Virus record (IMG/VR): IMGVR_UViG_3300017786_000140
Coordinates: 1-24,046 of that record
Direction: 5' to 3' (one strand)
DNA from: a virus
DNA: 24,046 nucleotides
Under the pieces are notes generated by a model. The model did not search any database. It saw only the letters and a list, made by a program, of their open reading frames with translations, and was not told the DNA's origin. Each line of letters starts with the position of its first letter. Position 1 is the first letter of the stretch. Below, in pieces: positions 7,502 to 22,500 of this stretch. The position numbers and the translations under genes are program-made.

Positions 7502-8416
7502 TTACCCTTCTCCGTACAAATTAGAGTATAGGTTTGCTCGTTTATTAAGTACCTCTTGTCGTTTAGCTCTGTCAGCCAAGTTCAAAGAAGATGGATCACT
7601 CATAATAAGTGATGCATTATCTGCATCAAGCTCTGCAATCGCAGTCTTTACTCCGTGAACGTTTTGGTTCGCAAAACCACTAGCTGGGTTATTAGCAACA
7701 GCAGGTAAAGTATCGCCTGATACTTCCGCCAACCTATGAAACAACTTTAAGACAGCAGGGTGATTTGCAACCACAGGATCAGCTTCTATTAGCTCCTTAA
7801 TCTCGGGGATCTCAGAAGCCATCGCCTCATACGCTTGATTAGCCTGAGCAAGATTTACTTCGTAGTTATCCCCCCAATCCATTCGAACGGAAGTTTTAGC
7901 ATCTTCAACCTGCTTTGCAACAGACTCTTCTGCAGTTTTTTGTTGCTCTATCCCCATACCTACATAAGCCTCGTATAGCTGATCAAACTGGTTTTGTGAT
8001 AATCCCAGCTCTGCTGTAAAATCAACAAACTCCTGTACAGCCTCAGTCGGTAGTTCAATAGGCACAGTCTCATCCCCAACAGTTACTTCATCAGGAATAG
8101 TATACTCAGAATCGGCAGGTCTTATATTGCTATAAAAGTCCTCCCATTGTTCTTCTCCCCAATCTTCTTGGGGTGCAGATAAACGTTTTGAACCCAAAGC
8201 ACTCTGTGCATTTACAAGCTGATCTGCTAGTGCATGCATAGACTTTGTATTCTTAAGTGTATCGTTTGCCTGTAATTCTTCAGGCAATGATTGTAAAAAC
8301 TGACCATAGGAATCTTCTGATGCAAAATCAAAAGCACTAGACTCAGTTGCGGTTTCAGAGGCTACCTCTTCGGGGATACCCCCGCCTAGACCTCCTGTGT
8401 TTTCTTCTTCGCTCAT
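7502..8416 (-). CDS. Probable scaffolding protein
   Basis: A 304-residue, strongly acidic, helix-rich protein from ATG 8416. The N-terminus is Glu/Gly/Ser/Thr-rich and probably disordered (MSEEENTGGLGGGIPEEV). The middle contains FDFASEDSYGQFLQSLPEE and a long Gln/Glu/Ala helix (QQKTAEESVAKQVEDAKTS), and the C-terminus is helical with alternating charge (ADRAKRQEVLNKRANLY). Length, acidity, and position between portal and major capsid protein match T7 gp9-type scaffolds, which guide procapsid assembly and then leave. No single motif proves it. It overlaps the upstream Bbp19-like gene by ATGA, and a GGAG lies about 12 bases before its ATG. Confidence 0.7.
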   Translation of the reverse strand: MSEEENTGGLGGGIPEEVASETATESSAFDFASEDSYGQFLQSLPEELQANDTLKNTKSMHALADQLVNAQSALGSKRLSAPQEDWGEEQWEDFYSNIRPADSEYTIPDEVTVGDETVPIELPTEAVQEFVDFTAELGLSQNQFDQLYEAYVGMGIEQQKTAEESVAKQVEDAKTSVRMDWGDNYEVNLAQANQAYEAMASEIPEIKELIEADPVVANHPAVLKLFHRLAEVSGDTLPAVANNPASGFANQNVHGVKTAIAELDADNASLIMSDPSSLNLADRAKRQEVLNKRANLYSNLYGEG

Positions 8417-16170: not shown

Positions 16171-16218
16171 ATAGTAGAAAGTAGCCACTGTCCAGAACGG
16201 GCAGTGGCTACCCACTAT
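16171..16218 (+). terminator. Strong hairpin closing the first early gene block
   Basis: The stem GTAGCCACTG/CAGTGGCTAC (16181-16190 with 16202-16211) extends inward by a T-G wobble and two C-G pairs to 13 bp with a 5-base loop. An outer ATAGT/ACTAT (16171-16175 with 16214-16218) may add to it. The next bases are AATGATAACAAT with no T-run, so it is either a processing/stabilising hairpin or a weak terminator before the ubiquitin-like operon. Confidence 0.65.
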
Positions 16219-16371: not shown

Positions 16372-16596
16372 ATGGCAAGTGTAACAATTCGTTACGGTAT
16401 GACAAACTCTGTCACCCGTGATTTCGACAATGAAACTACTGTTTCTGAGATAATCAGCGACAATGGTATTCGCGCAGCTTTGTCTGCTCCCGAGAATATT
16501 CGTGCTGTTTCTGGTGGTCGTACACTAGAAGGACATGAATACGCAACCTCGTTTACAAGTATTACCTTGGAGCAACAAGCTTCAAGCAAGGCTTAG
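16372..16596 (+). CDS. Ubiquitin-like beta-grasp protein
   Basis: A 74-residue protein from ATG 16372, the length of ubiquitin/MoaD/ThiS domains. The segments fit a beta-grasp: strand SVTIRYG, hairpin strand SVTRDFD, DNETTVSEII leading into the helix (to about residue 38), strand ENIRAVSGGRTLEG, and a last strand TSITLEQQ. Its neighbours (E2-like, E1-like and JAB) make a ubiquitin-like protein the natural reading. It ends in ASSKA and not in Gly-Gly. Either this family uses another C-terminus, as PRTRC-type ubiquitin-like proteins appear to, or the JAB enzyme trims it. A weak stem plus T-run (16607-16647) follows, which might attenuate the downstream genes. The fold is inferred from pattern and context. 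Confidence 0.75.
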   Translation: MASVTIRYGMTNSVTRDFDNETTVSEIISDNGIRAALSAPENIRAVSGGRTLEGHEYATSFTSITLEQQASSKA

Positions 16597-16606
16597 TCCT
16601 TCCTAT

Positions 16607-16647
16607 GAGCGTCCTGAGTATGACGAAACATAAAACTGCTCTTTTTT
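16607..16647 (+). terminator. Weak stem with T-run between ubiquitin-like and E2-like genes
   Basis: GAGC (16607-16610) can pair with GCTC (16638-16641), with a smaller CGTC/GACG hairpin inside, and TTTTTT (16642-16647) follows directly before the E2-like ATG. If it acts as an attenuator it would keep the ubiquitin-like protein in excess over its enzymes, but the stem is short and this may be chance. Confidence 0.25.
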
Positions 16648-16650
16648 ATT

Positions 16651-17424
16651 ATGTCAGAAAAATATCTAGATCAAGAATTTATTTTACGCAGCGACGGTAA
16701 ATTCTACAAACGCACTACTGTAATATCTCCTGTGCAAAACGCAGACCAGATGTTATCCGCTGTCAAGGATGACGGTATACCAGTCGTATATCCTTTTAAT
16801 CAACTATTAAATCTACCCGCCATAGGTAAATCTTTTAATGTACAAAGTATGTTGTACAGCAATCAAACAAATCATGTATATACAATTACTGAATTAAACG
16901 AGTTTCCATTTCCTGAATCATGGCTAGCTAAACCAGACGATGGTGATCACTACAATCTTGGTGTTAATAATACTGATCGAGATTACACAGGTCCTAGATC
17001 ATTAATTTGGAATCCAACTGTAGACAACTTAAAACTGTATCTTTTAGTTTCAATTAACTTCAAAGAATACAGCATTTGTAATCCAATATTATTTGTTGTA
17101 GATCAAACTAAAACACCGTATGTTCCAAACATTCCTAATGTATATGACGACGGTCGTATATGCACTGGTGATGATTACAAAAAAGAGTTTCGTAACAAAG
17201 ACGAAGCAATGTTAATACATGCAGAAAACATGTATAATATGTACCGCACACCGTGCAACAACGACCTAAGAAATCACGCAGTAGAAAAACAATATATTAA
17301 ATTCACAGGAGATGGTTCAACTATTCCTACACTAGAAACTCCTGGTATAATATCTGATAATGATTTCAGATTCTATATAAAGTGCACAAACTCAAAAGTT
17401 ATTGACTTCCTTAAAAATGTCTAA
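16651..17424 (+). CDS. E2-like ubiquitin-conjugating protein (PRTRC protein B/Prok-E2 type)
   Basis: A 257-residue protein from ATG 16651. Residues 146-173 contain the core of an E2 fold: a hydrophobic strand (NPILFVVD), a Pro-rich turn (TPYVPNIPN) and the motif PNVYDDGRICTG with Cys171. This resembles the PNxYxxGxIC active-site loop of eukaryotic E2 enzymes and of bacterial PRTRC protein B/Prok-E2 family D. An N-terminal domain of about 110 residues (DQEFILRSDGKFYKRTTV..., PVVYPFNQLLNL) precedes it, and a helical segment follows (DEAMLIHAENMYNMYR). The gene lies between the ubiquitin-like and E1-like genes. Cys171 is predicted to carry the activated ubiquitin-like protein as a thioester. The next gene overlaps by 8 bases (ATGTCTAA). 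Confidence 0.7.
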   Translation: MSEKYLDQEFILRSDGKFYKRTTVISPVQNADQMLSAVKDDGIPVVYPFNQLLNLPAIGKSFNVQSMLYSNQTNHVYTITELNEFPFPESWLAKPDDGDHYNLGVNNTDRDYTGPRSLIWNPTVDNLKLYLLVSINFKEYSICNPILFVVDQTKTPYVPNIPNVYDDGRICTGDDYKKEFRNKDEAMLIHAENMYNMYRTPCNNDLRNHAVEKQYIKFTGDGSTIPTLETPGIISDNDFRFYIKCTNSKVIDFLKNV

Positions 17425-17758
17425 TCTATACAAATCAATATCAACTCAATATGTTGTTTCAGAAAATTGTCACTCTTGGTTTCAAGATGCATCTAATCAA
17501 AATATAAACAGACAATATTATCACGGGTTTGCGTCAAATCTTCAAAGCCAAGCTGAACAAGAATTTGATACATACCCTGTAGAAAATCCACTCAACGCAG
17601 AAGACACACGCATACTGTTTAAAATACTAAATAAATCGTATGCAGATTCTGGTCGTAAGCGTGGTGCAATCCTTCGGTACATTAAAGCTTACCGTGAACT
17701 CAAGCCAGATCAAATTGGTACTCGGCTTTACAATCAACTAAATCAATATGAAACCTAA
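17417..17758 (+). CDS. Unknown component of the ubiquitin-like operon
   Basis: A 113-residue protein from ATG 17417; the overlap of this ATG with the E2-like stop argues against the upstream TTG at 17402. It begins MSNLYKSISTQYVVSENCHS and is helical and polar, with QYYHGFASNLQSQAEQEF in the middle and a basic patch (SYADSGRKRGAILRYIKAY) followed by a short C-terminal helix. I recognise no family: no RING-type Cys/His pattern and no enzymatic motif. It is locked between E2-like and E1-like genes by 8- and 11-base overlaps, so it probably works with them, as an adaptor, substrate or substrate-recognition factor. That is inference from position. Confidence 0.6.
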   Translation: MSNLYKSISTQYVVSENCHSWFQDASNQNINRQYYHGFASNLQSQAEQEFDTYPVENPLNAEDTRILFKILNKSYADSGRKRGAILRYIKAYRELKPDQIGTRLYNQLNQYET

Positions 17759-18473
17759 ACTAAATGCAGTAATTATCGGAGCAGGCGGTGTCACAAGTTA
17801 TATGTTACCAGCTTTGCGTAGCAGTTTTGACACACACCTCACTATTATAGACGGAGATATACTTGAGAAGAAAAATCTCGACCGTCAACTATTCAGAAAC
17901 AATATGGTGGGTCAATACAAATGTGTTGCTCTTATGAAACAATATCACTTTAAGAAAAGTGAAGGTCAGGCAATCAGATCATATTTTGATCTAGCTATGC
18001 TTGACACAGAATACAAGTTTTGGTTCTCACAAGCAGATGTTATTATCTGTGCTGTAGATAATCATCCTGCGCGTAAAGCAGCTATTGATGCAGCTAAGCT
18101 GCTTAACACTCCTATTGTTATATGTGCAAACGAATACCACACAAGTCAAGCATTGTTCTATGATCCAAATCTTGCTAATCACCTTGGACTAACAATGTTT
18201 GATCCTATTATTCGATACCCTGAAATTAGCACTGATCAATCAGGTAGTCCAATTAGCTGCCAAGGAATTGCATTAGAATCTACACCGCAACTAGCAACAG
18301 CTAATCAAGTAGCTGGTGCTTTTGGTAACTTTTTATTATGGTCTTGGTTTGGTATGCCTAAATGCAAAGATGAAAATCTAAAATACATGCCAATCGAATT
18401 CCAATCAACATTCTCTAGAATGCAAACTACAACTATCGATGACCTCCAAAAACTTAATAAAAAAGCCAGTTAG
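17748..18473 (+). CDS. E1/ThiF-like adenylating enzyme
   Basis: A 241-residue protein from ATG 17748. It opens with the nucleotide-binding strand-loop NAVIIGAGGVTSYML (GAGGV at 11-15), then LTIIDGDILEKKNLDRQLF (31-49) with the Asp, Glu, Asn, Asp and Arg positions typical of ThiF/MoeB/E1 adenylation domains, and the strand ADVIICAVDNHPARKAA (96-112). Later comes SCQGIALESTPQLATANQ with Cys171, the best candidate thioester cysteine. The CxxC zinc pairs of MoeB are absent. It should activate the C-terminus of the neighbouring ubiquitin-like protein with ATP and pass it to the E2-like cysteine. Its small size matches PRTRC-type ThiF proteins. It overlaps the preceding gene by 11 bases and the JAB gene by 35. 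Confidence 0.85.
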   Translation: MKPKLNAVIIGAGGVTSYMLPALRSSFDTHLTIIDGDILEKKNLDRQLFRNNMVGQYKCVALMKQYHFKKSEGQAIRSYFDLAMLDTEYKFWFSQADVIICAVDNHPARKAAIDAAKLLNTPIVICANEYHTSQALFYDPNLANHLGLTMFDPIIRYPEISTDQSGSPISCQGIALESTPQLATANQVAGAFGNFLLWSWFGMPKCKDENLKYMPIEFQSTFSRMQTTTIDDLQKLNKKAS

Positions 18474-19602
18474 TGTTTACCACGACGGTGCTATCTACCA
18501 ACCTGTAGAAACATCTTTGTGCACAACTTACACTAAACTTCAAGATATTAAAGAAGTAGAAGAACTTACACCAACATGGAATGGTAAAAAAATACCAATA
18601 GCCTTGTGGAAAGAAATACTTGCATTCATGAAACATTCGTACGATGTACTTTCTTCCGAAACCCTGGTGTATTTGTTTTATGATGAAAACAAACAACAAC
18701 CTTGGTCGTATTGGGTTCCACCACAAGAAACAGCAGGTATGACTGTTAAGTCTTTACCAGATCATCCTGATTATATTGAACAGCGTGCTTTGTATCCAGA
18801 TACTATGTTTGGTACAGTGCACCATCACTGTTCTACTTCTGCATTTCAATCTGGCACAGATGAAGCAGACGAAGTTAATCGAGAAGGTATGCACTTTACT
18901 GTTGGTAAGCTTAACAACACCGAAATAGTTGATGTTCACTTTCGTATTACACTGGGCGGAGCACACGCTGAATTAGATGCGCAAACTTACATTAAAATGG
19001 AAGAGTCTCCATTTAAACGAACTTGCCGTGTTCCTGAAAAAATACAGAACCAAGCTAGACAAGAGCTGCACAAACTAGATATTACTACGCTGCCTGATAC
19101 TAAACATTATAATTTTACAAAACATATGGATAATGTTAGTAAAAAGACTTTTACACCTGTTACATATAATTACAACCAACGTTCACTTGGTTGGGATTTT
19201 GACTCAGCACCCGAAAAAAAAATCGACGACGAGGGTTTGTTAGATGATACACAAATACTTGCTGAGACTTTTATAGACTCAGTACTTACTGATTGGCATT
19301 TTGAAGAAATACTACAATCATATTATCAATATACTAACAATTCAGTTAAAGTTACTGATCTTATGCACGCTCAACTTGATGAAGAAGATGTTCGTGTTGA
19401 CCTAGTAACAATGTTTAACGATATAAAATATACAAACTCGCAAAATTATGCAGAAACTCATACATCAATTCAAATGTTTCTTGAAGAACAAAGTAACTTA
19501 GGAGTTGCATATACAACAAAAGAACTTATCAATGGACTTAACACTATCAAATATGACCAAGGAACAGGAGTTCAACAAATGGATAAGGAGAATGTTTTAT
19601 GA
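18439..19602 (+). CDS. JAB/JAMM metalloprotease (deubiquitinase-like) with C-terminal extension
   Basis: A 387-residue protein from ATG 18439. The JAMM zinc motif is complete: Glu74 in SSETLVYLFYDE, and the signature H128-x-H130-x7-S138-x2-D141 in VHHHCSTSAFQSGTDEAD. The domain spans about residues 50-190 (with FRITLGGAHAELDAQTY near its end). Such enzymes cut isopeptide bonds or trim precursors of ubiquitin-like proteins. Residues about 195-387 form an acidic, helix-rich extension of unknown role (DSVLTDWHFEEILQSYYQY..., RVDLVTMFNDI). It overlaps the E1-like gene by 35 bases, and its stop overlaps an ATG at 19599 (ATGA). Confidence 0.85.
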   Translation: MTSKNLIKKPVSVYHDGAIYQPVETSLCTTYTKLQDIKEVEELTPTWNGKKIPIALWKEILAFMKHSYDVLSSETLVYLFYDENKQQPWSYWVPPQETAGMTVKSLPDHPDYIEQRALYPDTMFGTVHHHCSTSAFQSGTDEADEVNREGMHFTVGKLNNTEIVDVHFRITLGGAHAELDAQTYIKMEESPFKRTCRVPEKIQNQARQELHKLDITTLPDTKHYNFTKHMDNVSKKTFTPVTYNYNQRSLGWDFDSAPEKKIDDEGLLDDTQILAETFIDSVLTDWHFEEILQSYYQYTNNSVKVTDLMHAQLDEEDVRVDLVTMFNDIKYTNSQNYAETHTSIQMFLEEQSNLGVAYTTKELINGLNTIKYDQGTGVQQMDKENVL

Positions 19603-19996
19603 ACAATCTAATCATAAAGTGTGCTGTCAGCGCATCGAAACTACTACGGGGAATGGAATACCTGATTTCTTGGTCGTCTTACCATTCGGAATCTATCTTA
19701 TTGAGAGCAAGTTTGAGACTACAAAAATACGCCCTGAACAAGCAGCGTTCCATATCAGAACGAATTCGATTGCGAAAGATGATGTCCACCGTTGTATTAC
19801 ACTCTCAGCATACCCAAAAAGTAAGAGACTAATAGCTACAACTTACAGTGCATATTCTATATCTGAAGATGGCATTGTACCTGCAAGAACAACAACATTT
19901 ACTCTTGATTCCAAGGGATTTAAACAATTCTATTTAACACTTTCCGACAAGCCAGTATGGCAAGAATCCGAAACTAAGCGACTCTGCACGGCTTAG
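19553..19996 (+). CDS. PD-(D/E)xK nuclease, VRR-NUC-like
   Basis: From ATG 19553 this gives 147 residues (MTKEQEFNKWIRRMFYEQ). The catalytic core is visible: GNGIPDFLVV (Asp38), IYLIESKFE (Glu51, Lys53) and RPEQAAFHIR (Gln63), the G-x-PD ... ExK ... Q pattern of VRR-NUC and related phage nucleases acting on branched or single-stranded-junction DNA. A likely role is recombination or resolution during replication. The start is uncertain: it overlaps the JAB gene by 50 bases, while the best Shine-Dalgarno sequence nearby (AAGGAG 19585-19590) points to ATG 19599 in another frame. A shorter in-frame start at ATG 19592 would keep all catalytic residues. Confidence 0.7.
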   Translation: MTKEQEFNKWIRRMFYEQSNHKVCCQRIETTTGNGIPDFLVVLPFGIYLIESKFETTKIRPEQAAFHIRTNSIAKDDVHRCITLSAYPKSKRLIATTYSAYSISEDGIVPARTTTFTLDSKGFKQFYLTLSDKPVWQESETKRLCTA

Positions 19997-20325: not shown

Positions 20326-20699
20326 ATTATATATCAATTATTCTTGCAATTCTTGTAATAGAAAGTGGTGGTAATGATTTAGCTGTTGGAGACAATGGCA
20401 TGTCATTAGGGTGTTTACAACTTACTGAAGCATATGTACAAGACGCATCTGAACATGCTAATATAGACTGGGTACATAATGATGCTTTTAACAGACAAAA
20501 AAGTATAGATATTTTTATTGCGTATATGTCACGATATGCAACACCTAAAAGATTAGGCAGACCAGTAACCGTTGAAGATATTGTACGAATACACAACGGG
20601 GGACCAAATGGATACAAAAAACAAGCAACAAAAAAATACTGGCGAAAAATTAAAAAACTATTAGATGCAACAAACAGAACTCAACGTAATAACATCTGA
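20322..20699 (+). CDS. Transglycosylase/lysozyme-like protein
   Basis: A 125-residue protein from ATG 20322. ILAILVIESGGND carries the probable catalytic Glu14, followed by AVGDNGMSLGCLQLTEAYV (glycine-rich active-site strand, then a helix) and VRIHNGGPNG near residues 87-96. This order is the signature of SLT/goose-lysozyme-like peptidoglycan lytic transglycosylases. The hydrophobic N-terminus is probably the first helix of the enzyme and not a signal peptide. It could be a virion-borne or lysis muramidase. Its place directly before the DNA polymerase gene, overlapping it by 35 bases, is unusual for a lysis gene. The C-terminus is basic (KKYWRKIKKLLD). Confidence 0.7.
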   Translation: MNYISIILAILVIESGGNDLAVGDNGMSLGCLQLTEAYVQDASEHANIDWVHNDAFNRQKSIDIFIAYMSRYATPKRLGRPVTVEDIVRIHNGGPNGYKKQATKKYWRKIKKLLDATNRTQRNNI

Positions 20700-22500
20700 T
20701 GTATTGTGGCGACCTCCAGTTATACTACCACAGTTTGAAAATATAGTAGCAATTGATCTAGAAACTTATGATCCATATTTAAAACAAACAGGACCATCAT
20801 ATAAACGTGGTGCTGGTAAAGTAACAGGAGTTGCTATAGCAGATAGTCACCAACAAATATACTTACCGTTTGATCATTTAAATGGGGACAATCTTGATAA
20901 AAATCTGGTTGTTTCTTTCGTTAAGGAAGTAGTTAAAAACAGTAAAGAAATACTGTTTGCTAACGCTGCATACGATCTCGGCTGGCTTGAGTCTCTGGGC
21001 ATTAAAGTCTCTTGTCCAGTCCGAGACGTTCAGATTGCTGAGGCATTAATTGATGAAGAACAGTTTTCATACAGTCTTAACAACCTGTCTAAGAAATACT
21101 TAAACAGAACTAAGTTTGAAGATAAACTTAACGAAGCTGCTAAAGCTTATGGTTACAGCCCTAAAGGTGACATGTGGAAACTACCCGCTAGGTATGTAGG
21201 TGAGTATGCTGAGATAGATGCTCGTAATACCTGGGATGTATACCAACATCAAATACCAATACTTAAAGAACAAAACCTTTGGAATATCTGGGAGCTAGAA
21301 TGTAAACTTACACCTATACTACTGCAGATGACACTTAAAGGTGTCCCTGTAGATATAGATAGAGCTGACCAACTTAATAATAAGTTACTTAAACAAGAAA
21401 CCAAACTCAAAGAAAAGTTTGGCACGCTAGATATTTGGTCACCTAATCAATTAGGCGAGTATATTACTAAGCTGGGTCTTGTAGTTCCTAAAACAGAAAA
21501 AGGTAATTACTCTGTATCTAAGTCATTCCTAGAACATTGTGAACATGAAACAGTAAAACAAATATACGAAACTCGTTGTATCAATCGGCTGCGTAAAGTG
21601 TTTATTGAAGATATCATACTCAAAGGTAGTTACAAAGGTCGCATCCACGCAGACTTCAGACAGACTGCATCCGATCAAGGCGGCACACGTTCTGGTCGAC
21701 TGTCTTCTAGTAACCCAAATCTACAACAAGTTCCTAAACGCAGTGAGATTGGTAAAGCAATTAGAACATTATACATAGCAGAACCAGATACACTTTGGTG
21801 CAAAGCAGACTACAGCTCTCAAGAACCAAGACTCCAAGTGCACTACGCACTGCTTGGTCAGTTTGGTAAACCACTGCCCAAAGCAGAACAGGCTAGAGAT
21901 GCTTTTGCTAGCGGTGAGAAGCTATATACTTTCTTTGAAAAAACCACAGGACTACCATACGACACATGTAAGATGTTGTGTTTAGGTATTAGTTATGGAA
22001 TGGGTAATAAAAAGATGGCAGAAACATTAGGCATATCAGAAGAAATGTGCAGTTCAACTATGAGAAAGTTTAACGATGAAGCACCATTCTTGAAAATATT
22101 ATTTGATAGCGTAATGAACAAAGCTAGTCAGCAAGGATACATAAAAACTATACTAGGCAGGCGTGCTCGTTTTGATTTCTGGGTGTCTGACTTTGGGGAT
22201 AAACCAATCAAAAACAAACGCATAGCCCAAGCTAGATTTAAAAATAACAGAGTGTTCCGTGCATTTACAAGCAAAGGACTAAACAGACTAATACAAGGCA
22301 GTGCCGCAGACCAAGCCAAAAAAGCAATGGTCGATGCACACGAAGCTGGCTTTGATCTTAGGCTGCCAGTTCACGATGAAATTAACGCCATGGTTAAAAA
22401 TAAACAAGAAAGCCTTGACTTAAAATTAATCATGGAGAATGCTATCACACTCAAAGTACCCGTTGTTGCAGATATAGATCTAGGAGCAACGTGGTGTTAG
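20665..22500 (+). CDS. Family A DNA polymerase with 3'-5' exonuclease
   Basis: A 611-residue protein from ATG 20665 (T7 gp5 is 704). The exonuclease motifs are AIDLET (Asp31, Glu33), FANAAYD (Asp104) and YAEID (Asp185). The polymerase motifs are TRSGRLSSSNPNLQQVP (341-357), motif A DYSSQEPRLQ (Asp382), motif B CKMLCLGISYG (Lys436, Tyr444) and motif C VHDE (Asp571, Glu572). It is the phage replicative polymerase. In motif B the residue four after the conserved Lys, equivalent to E. coli Pol I Phe762 and T7 Tyr526, is Leu440. No 5' nuclease domain is present. The polymerase is followed after 4 bases by the next gene; a helicase/primase is not in this window. Confidence 0.95.
   Translation: MQQTELNVITSDVLWRPPVILPQFENIVAIDLETYDPYLKQTGPSYKRGAGKVTGVAIADSHQQIYLPFDHLNGDNLDKNLVVSFVKEVVKNSKEILFANAAYDLGWLESLGIKVSCPVRDVQIAEALIDEEQFSYSLNNLSKKYLNRTKFEDKLNEAAKAYGYSPKGDMWKLPARYVGEYAEIDARNTWDVYQHQIPILKEQNLWNIWELECKLTPILLQMTLKGVPVDIDRADQLNNKLLKQETKLKEKFGTLDIWSPNQLGEYITKLGLVVPKTEKGNYSVSKSFLEHCEHETVKQIYETRCINRLRKVFIEDIILKGSYKGRIHADFRQTASDQGGTRSGRLSSSNPNLQQVPKRSEIGKAIRTLYIAEPDTLWCKADYSSQEPRLQVHYALLGQFGKPLPKAEQARDAFASGEKLYTFFEKTTGLPYDTCKMLCLGISYGMGNKKMAETLGISEEMCSSTMRKFNDEAPFLKILFDSVMNKASQQGYIKTILGRRARFDFWVSDFGDKPIKNKRIAQARFKNNRVFRAFTSKGLNRLIQGSAADQAKKAMVDAHEAGFDLRLPVHDEINAMVKNKQESLDLKLIMENAITLKVPVVADIDLGATWC

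Follow-up and report, generated by a model that had tools for sequence, protein, structure and literature searches.

A 24,046-nt virus fragment (IMG/VR record IMGVR_UViG_3300017786_000140; hereafter, the window, to whose positions all coordinates refer) carries five tightly packed plus-strand genes at 16372–19602, which encode a ubiquitin-like protein (UBL), an E2-like protein, a basic protein (hereafter, X), an E1/ThiF-like adenylating enzyme and a JAB/JAMM metalloprotease, in the order UBL-E2-X-E1-JAB. This operon probably specifies a working, self-contained and reversible ubiquitin-like tagging pathway that is used in the lytic cycle, most likely on proteins of the host or of competing phages. 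Its genes resemble the ubiquitin system, by which eukaryotes label proteins and strip the labels off again. A functional conjugation pathway as such is very probable from the predicted folds and conserved residues; the narrower proposal, that the targets are host or competitor-phage proteins rather than those of the phage's own virion, is evenly balanced. UBL and E2 are separated by 54 nt, and the following genes overlap by 8 nt (E2/X), 11 nt (X/E1) and 35 nt (E1/JAB). All five open reading frames (ORFs) were present, with the places, lengths and E2, E1 and JAB motifs reported in an initial annotation made from the sequence alone. The five-gene set is not a chance assembly, because family matches, the UBL fold and the retention of the same gene order in about 35 other contigs all agree. 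The complete set for conjugation and deconjugation claimed in that annotation is likewise upheld by the UBL fold, the E2 active site, the E1 and JAB family matches and invariant residues.

Components of the operon

The 74-aa UBL (16372–16596) returned nothing useful when its sequence alone was searched against Pfam, PHROGs, NCBIfam and PADLOC. An AlphaFold model built from 14 relatives (pLDDT 91) has the beta-grasp order of strands and helices followed by a floppy tail, and the 50 matches listed by Foldseek for this model were all ubiquitins, ubiquitin variants or Ubl domains (probability 1.00, TM ~0.7). From this model, we are confident that the UBL adopts the ubiquitin fold; the beta-grasp assignment, on which the initial annotation had staked its interpretation, thus came through clearly.

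The window UBL ends in QASSKA, and its sole lysine is K73. SSKA forms the C-terminal end of all 34 distinct podovirus-type UBLs (L114 among them), 31 of which have a single, penultimate lysine. Lysine makes up 1.5% of the UBL versus 4.4–8.6% in the other genes compared, and, given how much lysine the neighbours contain, the probability that the other 72 residues of one sequence have none is 0.04 to 0.0015. Because a lysine-free body has such a low probability by chance, selection against self-tagging is a plausible explanation for the near absence of lysine. In diverged UBLs, the tail reads x-K-A or x-K-G (few other K-x) and is followed by nothing, by 1–7 residues or by a second UBL. For example, the UBLs of loci L083 and L085 have short extensions beyond KA, and tandem UBLs repeat the tail at their joints while the bodies have diverged (identity L042: 39%, L025: 43%, Vibrio phage D69: 45–57%). 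The tail of PRTRC_C is -KG, with SYA after it in one case. These repeated tails, extensions and the SYA residues suggest that JAB exposes the C-terminal Ala or Gly of UBL precursors. In CBASS, a C-terminal Ala is proven as the conjugation end, and the JAMM enzyme Cap3 cuts a linear cGAS-cGAS fusion there (PMC10097602).

E1 (17748–18473, 241 aa) matched Pfam ThiF (7e-16) and, below the curated cut-off of that model, PRTRC_ThiF (TIGR03736, 1.9e-8). It contains the motifs GAGGV and DGD...NLDRQ, with the residues G11-x-G13-G14, D37, N43, R46, K58 and D104 and a catalytic-type C171; the ATP-binding and catalytic residues, including C171, were invariant in 36 of 36 sequences, diverged ones included. 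JAB (18439–19602, 387 aa) matched PRTRC_A (TIGR03735) at 3.8e-5, far below its 101.8-bit cut-off. Its catalytic set (E74, and H128, H130, S138 and D141 in the arrangement H128-x-H130-x7-S138-x2-D141) was invariant in 37/37 sequences, and a variable C-terminal extension of about 150 aa follows.

The 257-aa E2-like protein (16651–17424) carries the motif PNVYDDGRIC, comprising the candidate active site N163-x7-C171, and a downstream CNNDLR. N163 and C171 were aligned in all 33 sequences, and the N-x7-C spacing is that of the classical HPN...C site, such as N79 and C87 of Ubc13. On its own, the protein had no family match in Pfam, PHROGs, NCBIfam or PADLOC; three of 16 relatives touched Pfam Prok-E2_D at E ~0.1 (0.11), and sequence profiles of E2 and of JAB gave chance matches only against PDB. 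Its active-site segment aligned with PRTRC_B (hhalign: 4.7e-6 over 23 columns; 4e-9 when large-phage E2s were added). The AlphaFold model (pLDDT 82) retrieved nothing significant from BFVD by Foldseek, and a second structure comparison recovered several dozen UBC enzymes over model residues ~46–234 (mostly 115–125 aligned residues) at Z 3.5–4.5, where a value below 8 can mean a common arrangement. A UBC fold with a catalytic Cys after an HPN-like Asn was therefore found at moderate strength. Since the N-x7-C site is aligned throughout, we accept the E2 identity with moderate confidence, even though the fold evidence alone is moderate and this is the weakest single assignment of the five; the E2-like character proposed at the outset survived to that degree.

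X (17417–17758) has 113 aa from an ATG, or 118 aa if it begins at TTG 17402. It is conserved across the family, with the C-terminal motif R-x-L-x-K-I...GRKRGAxLRYI, and is possibly the partner of the E2.

The operon follows small early genes and precedes the DNA polymerase. Pfam and PHROG scans placed a nuclease, a lysozyme-like protein, a family A DNA polymerase and a DUF7307 protein past the module on the plus strand. The nuclease (19505–19996, + strand, likely start ATG 19553) is NERD/VRR-NUC-like, as identified from Pfam NERD (1.8e-4) and synteny; it adjoins JAB and is probably not part of the pathway. The polymerase (20665–22500, + strand; Pfam DNA_pol_A 8.7e-59) served as the lineage marker. 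The minus strand encodes a T7-type portal, a major head protein, a terminase and tail proteins, so the description of the virus as a podovirus with the set between early and replication genes is fair. A hairpin (GTAGCCACTGTCC/GGGCAGTGGCTAC) without a T-run lies in the operon leader at 16181–16211. L002, L003, L005 and L024 have it at the corresponding position; its changes are paired in L024, and one change in L003 is partly paired. It is a possible processing or regulatory element. Promoter and terminator scans gave scores no better than those of shuffled sequence.

Distribution and evolution of the module

The module is not unique to the phage of the window: it is present in many uncultured phages and, in a distant form, in cultured ones. 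With E1 as the query, the wider search of IMG/VR returned 38 loci, almost all of them at an identity of at least 58%. The order UBL-E2-X-E1-JAB-nuclease with the polymerase downstream was found in about 35 related marine viral contigs. When loci were instead collected by polymerase, E1 and JAB were present in 18 of 18 with polymerase identity of at least 67% and at least 3.5 kb of upstream sequence. The polymerase search also reached a 42.9-kb contig (L150), whose nuclease gene is preceded by small ORFs with repeated ‘YYEDSDG’-like motifs.

A DNA pattern for HHHCx3AFQSGTD matched 86 stretches, and about 27 of the loci collected were diverged. Where enough sequence was available, most diverged loci had the order UBL-E2-small ORF-E1-extra gene-JAB, and the proteins at the position of X had no detectable homology to X, except in L114. 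The gene between E1 and JAB (L051, L066, L085, L090 and others) encodes ~180–345 aa with a motif like NxxxRxxVxxxxKxPxPxxxxTxxxIxxWxExN; it is absent from the podovirus version and is a possible sixth component. One tandem-UBL module (L025), on a phage-like contig in a Cloacimonadota genome bin, has the order UBL-?-JAB-E1-E2. A GroES-like ORF (L025:7770–8159) lies beside it.

Among GenBank phages, neither megablast with the window nor tblastn with E1 found a match, and tblastn with JAB gave only distant ones, leading to Vibrio phage D69 and a gut phage contig. Isolates with distant versions are the Vibrio phages D69, D181 and D148 and Salmonella phage Arash. The D69 module (OZ195729.1, 173528–178085; L157) comprises a triple UBL in which each unit ends in TGTKG, an E2 with PNVYGDARMC, JAB and E1, all annotated as hypothetical; the annotated E1 start of D69 seems too far downstream. 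In the gut phage scaffold (MT835919.1; L159), which is unannotated and represents a further branch, other genes lie between those for JAB, E1 and an E2-like protein (SNVYDDLRVC). In Arash, the E1, JAB and E2 homologues (gp246–gp248) are listed in a published particle proteome of 116 proteins that includes many enzymes (PMC10585845). Because so many other enzymes are listed, the proteome speaks for expression better than for packaging, and the distant version of the module in Arash is thus expressed. An ORF at 8014–8214 of the Arash genome (OQ632216.1; L158) reads as a UBL ending in TGTKG, and gp251 is annotated there in another frame (8001–8219), which may be wrong. We considered whether the proteome includes the UBL as gp251, and rejected this on the grounds that the annotated gp251 frame differs from that of the UBL. 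In the E1 tree, which has long branches and was rooted at the midpoint with no outgroup, podovirus and IMG/VR sequences formed one group, apart from PRTRC and large phages.

Components of the module evolve at different rates, with E2 the fastest and X close behind. At 90–99.9% polymerase identity, median identities were 91% for UBL, 85% for E1, 76% for JAB, 69% for X and 57% for E2. Between L008 and L009, dN was 0.098 in E2 and 0.077 in X versus 0.004 in E1 and 0.006 in the polymerase (dS 0.13–0.20). The covariation of E2 and X suggests that they act as a specificity unit. Comparing the window to its close relative L002, dS was 0.64–0.96 in a stretch running from roughly codon 33 of E2 to close to the end of JAB, and 0–0.54 in the neighbouring genes. 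Since dS is raised across E2-to-JAB and lower in the flanks, we read this as recombinational replacement of the block between the two phages.

Proposed pathway, its targets and alternative explanations

On the evidence of folds and invariant catalytic residues, E1 would adenylate the UBL at its C-terminal Ala and keep it as a thioester on C171, from which it would pass to C171 of the E2. The E2, probably steered by X, would then attach the UBL to lysines of targets, as knowledge of the family and the lysine pattern imply. The tag would be mostly single, because the UBL is almost without lysine for chain extension. Folds and invariant residues likewise imply that JAB would remove the tag; where relatives have tandem or extended UBLs, it may also mature the precursor after Lys-Ala/Gly.

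Host or competitor-phage proteins are favoured as targets because E2 and X diversify fast while UBL and E1 are conserved, and because the E2-to-JAB block has apparently been replaced. If the competitor branch is taken alone, the module would serve to attack other phages or mobile elements by tagging structural proteins of competitors, with superinfection exclusion as the result. The bacterial Bil system reportedly puts its tag on a tail protein of the infecting phage. The diversifying E2 and X and the block replacement fit such an arms race, and PRTRC- and Bil-like sets reside on mobile elements, but the presence of the module in 18/18 relatives at a fixed place beside replication genes would be unusual for an exclusion module. 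With a lytic-looking phage and no evidence for expression outside infection, we regard this restricted version as unlikely.

The same degree of doubt applies to a role in the virion or its assembly, in which the tag would be put on, or taken off, the phage's own structural proteins. Such a role would suit a module that is core to the family and whose E1, JAB and E2 homologues occur in purified Arash particles, although carry-over is likely in a proteome of that size and enzyme content. Both the divergence of the E2, much greater than that of E1 or the polymerase, and the position of the structural genes, on the opposite strand and away from the operon, speak against it.

The initial annotation had also raised decoy or deconjugating activity against host ubiquitin-like defences, by which JAB and/or the UBL would disarm CBASS type II, Bil or Bub. 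Ubiquitin-like defences do exist in bacteria (PMC10097602), and JAB keeps all its catalytic residues. However, the catalytic residues of E1 and E2, needless for a decoy, are fully kept as well, and PADLOC models match the E1 domain only. Because all three enzymes are catalytically intact and the module occurs in 18 of 18 loci, whereas counter-defence genes are usually patchy, this explanation suits the data less than a working pathway does and is improbable. A sulfur-carrier pathway (ThiS/MoaD with ThiF/MoeB and JAMM) serving small-molecule or tRNA chemistry instead of protein tagging would account for the strong match of E1 to ThiF/MoeB models, but it is very improbable given an E2-like protein that is always there where sequence suffices, a UBL ending in Lys-Ala and not Gly-Gly, and scans of neighbouring proteins in which neither a rhodanese nor a cysteine synthase, nor any other enzyme of sulfur chemistry, turned up.

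Several points weigh against the tagging pathway that we prefer. The UBL ends in Ala, a departure from the Gly-Gly ending. No Foldseek match of the E2 model had an E-value below 0.3 and none was significant, while the top rows of the second structure comparison were actin-capping proteins (best Z 5.9, likewise below 8). X had nothing useful in Pfam, PHROGs, NCBIfam or PADLOC when searched alone, and no homologues were found beyond podovirus-type loci and L114. The dN/dS ratio stays below 1, so that the fast change of E2 could reflect relaxed constraint and positive selection is unproven. Lastly, L150 (58% polymerase identity) is without E1 and JAB, and the module is therefore dispensable in the wider lineage.

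Taken further, the data would tentatively define a widespread, unnamed class of reversible tagging systems that phages encode and that belongs to the core genes of certain lytic marine podoviruses. In this class, E2 and X would form a fast-evolving, exchangeable specificity unit that places a lysine-poor, Ala-ended tag on host or rival-phage proteins. Ubiquitin-like conjugation in bacteria has so far been known chiefly from two settings, uncharacterised cassettes of plasmids and weapons with which hosts oppose phages, and a catalytically intact set among the core genes of lytic-looking phages reverses the host-weapon picture. If the tagging pathway is real, ubiquitin-like conjugation in bacteria is carried out by viruses as well as by their hosts. 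The module is a defined five-gene system open to testing, Arash and D69 are cultured phages amenable to deletion and proteomics, and the tail motif, precursor maturation and E2/X specificity provide clues for PRTRC-type cassettes.

Relation to known systems

In the part of Iyer et al. 2006 drawn on here (PMC1779556), phage occurrences of ubiquitin-like and JAB proteins are limited to TAPI/TAPK of lambda and T1. These resemble the module in pairing a ubiquitin-like protein with a JAB in a phage. However, according to the same portion, they have no E1 or E2, their JAB is an NlpC/P60-JAB fusion and they lie in the tail gene cluster, whereas here there is no NlpC/P60 Pfam match and the operon is on the strand opposite the structural genes. 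The literature searched, in which subscription papers are largely outside coverage so that priority is unsettled, described no such phage module beyond TAPI/TAPK. Compared to ThiS/MoaD, the UBL ends in SSKA instead of Gly-Gly.

Bil (BilABCD), Bub and CBASS share the E1/E2/JAMM logic, and the E1 profile matches the E1 domain of BubCD (1.8e-6) and has a weak PDB match to Cap2; the proposed conjugation through a C-terminal Ala or Gly is a further likeness to CBASS. In the phage module, by contrast, E1 and E2 are unfused, there is no CD-NTase, the gene sets are other and the carrier is a virus, not a host. In particular, the operon has no Cap2-type E1-E2 fusion and no nucleotidyltransferase as in CBASS type II. 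PADLOC returned only E1-E2 models, which covered the E1 domain (best 1.9e-11), and none for UBL, E2 or JAB.

The versions in D69/D181/D148 and Arash have UBL, E2 (PNVYGDARMC / PNQYGDGNMC; FN-x-DL), JAB and E1 on one strand, as here. They differ in that they are annotated as hypothetical or structural, their E1 groups with PRTRC, and D69 has three UBL units, each with a TGTKG tail.

The closest comparison is to the PRTRC type, to which the initial annotation had likened the set. The part of Iyer et al. 2006 drawn on here describes, as class 6d, bacterial operons with a ubiquitin-like protein, JAB, E1, E2 and an alpha-helical protein (PMC1779556), which on our own reading of gene content equals the PRTRC type. 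Both have a ubiquitin-like protein, an E2-like protein, a separate E1 and a separate JAB. E1 aligned with PRTRC ThiF (hhalign: 1.2e-22 over 186 columns), and its best plasmid matches are annotated as PRTRC ThiF. JAB matched a profile of PRTRC and large-phage sequences (2.3e-15), although direct hhalign to one PRTRC_A gave only 3% probability. The E2 has its catalytic Cys and active site as in PRTRC_B, with Prok-E2_D only marginal, and the Lys-Ala tail resembles the Lys-Gly of PRTRC_C. The differences include the gene order and the lytic-looking podoviruses that carry the module. X had no match to PRTRC_E/F, and among the neighbours on this fragmentary record the Pfam and PHROG scans showed no PRTRC ParB, D, E or F; NCBIfam was applied to just the five operon proteins. 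Class 6d E2s, in the same portion of that paper, have an absolutely conserved His C-terminal to the Cys (PMC1779556), whereas position 205 of the phage E2 (N-x-D-L motif) is Asp in 32/33 sequences and His in 1/33. Hhalign of the UBL against PRTRC_C gave no match. The likeness thus stands for E1, JAB and the E2 active site; the E2 His is absent, and the UBL has no detectable homology to PRTRC_C beyond its suggestive tail. For the latter two reasons we do not file the module as a PRTRC/6d member. Judged from these alignments, it appears to work like the PRTRC/6d cassettes and to form a phage branch related to PRTRC.

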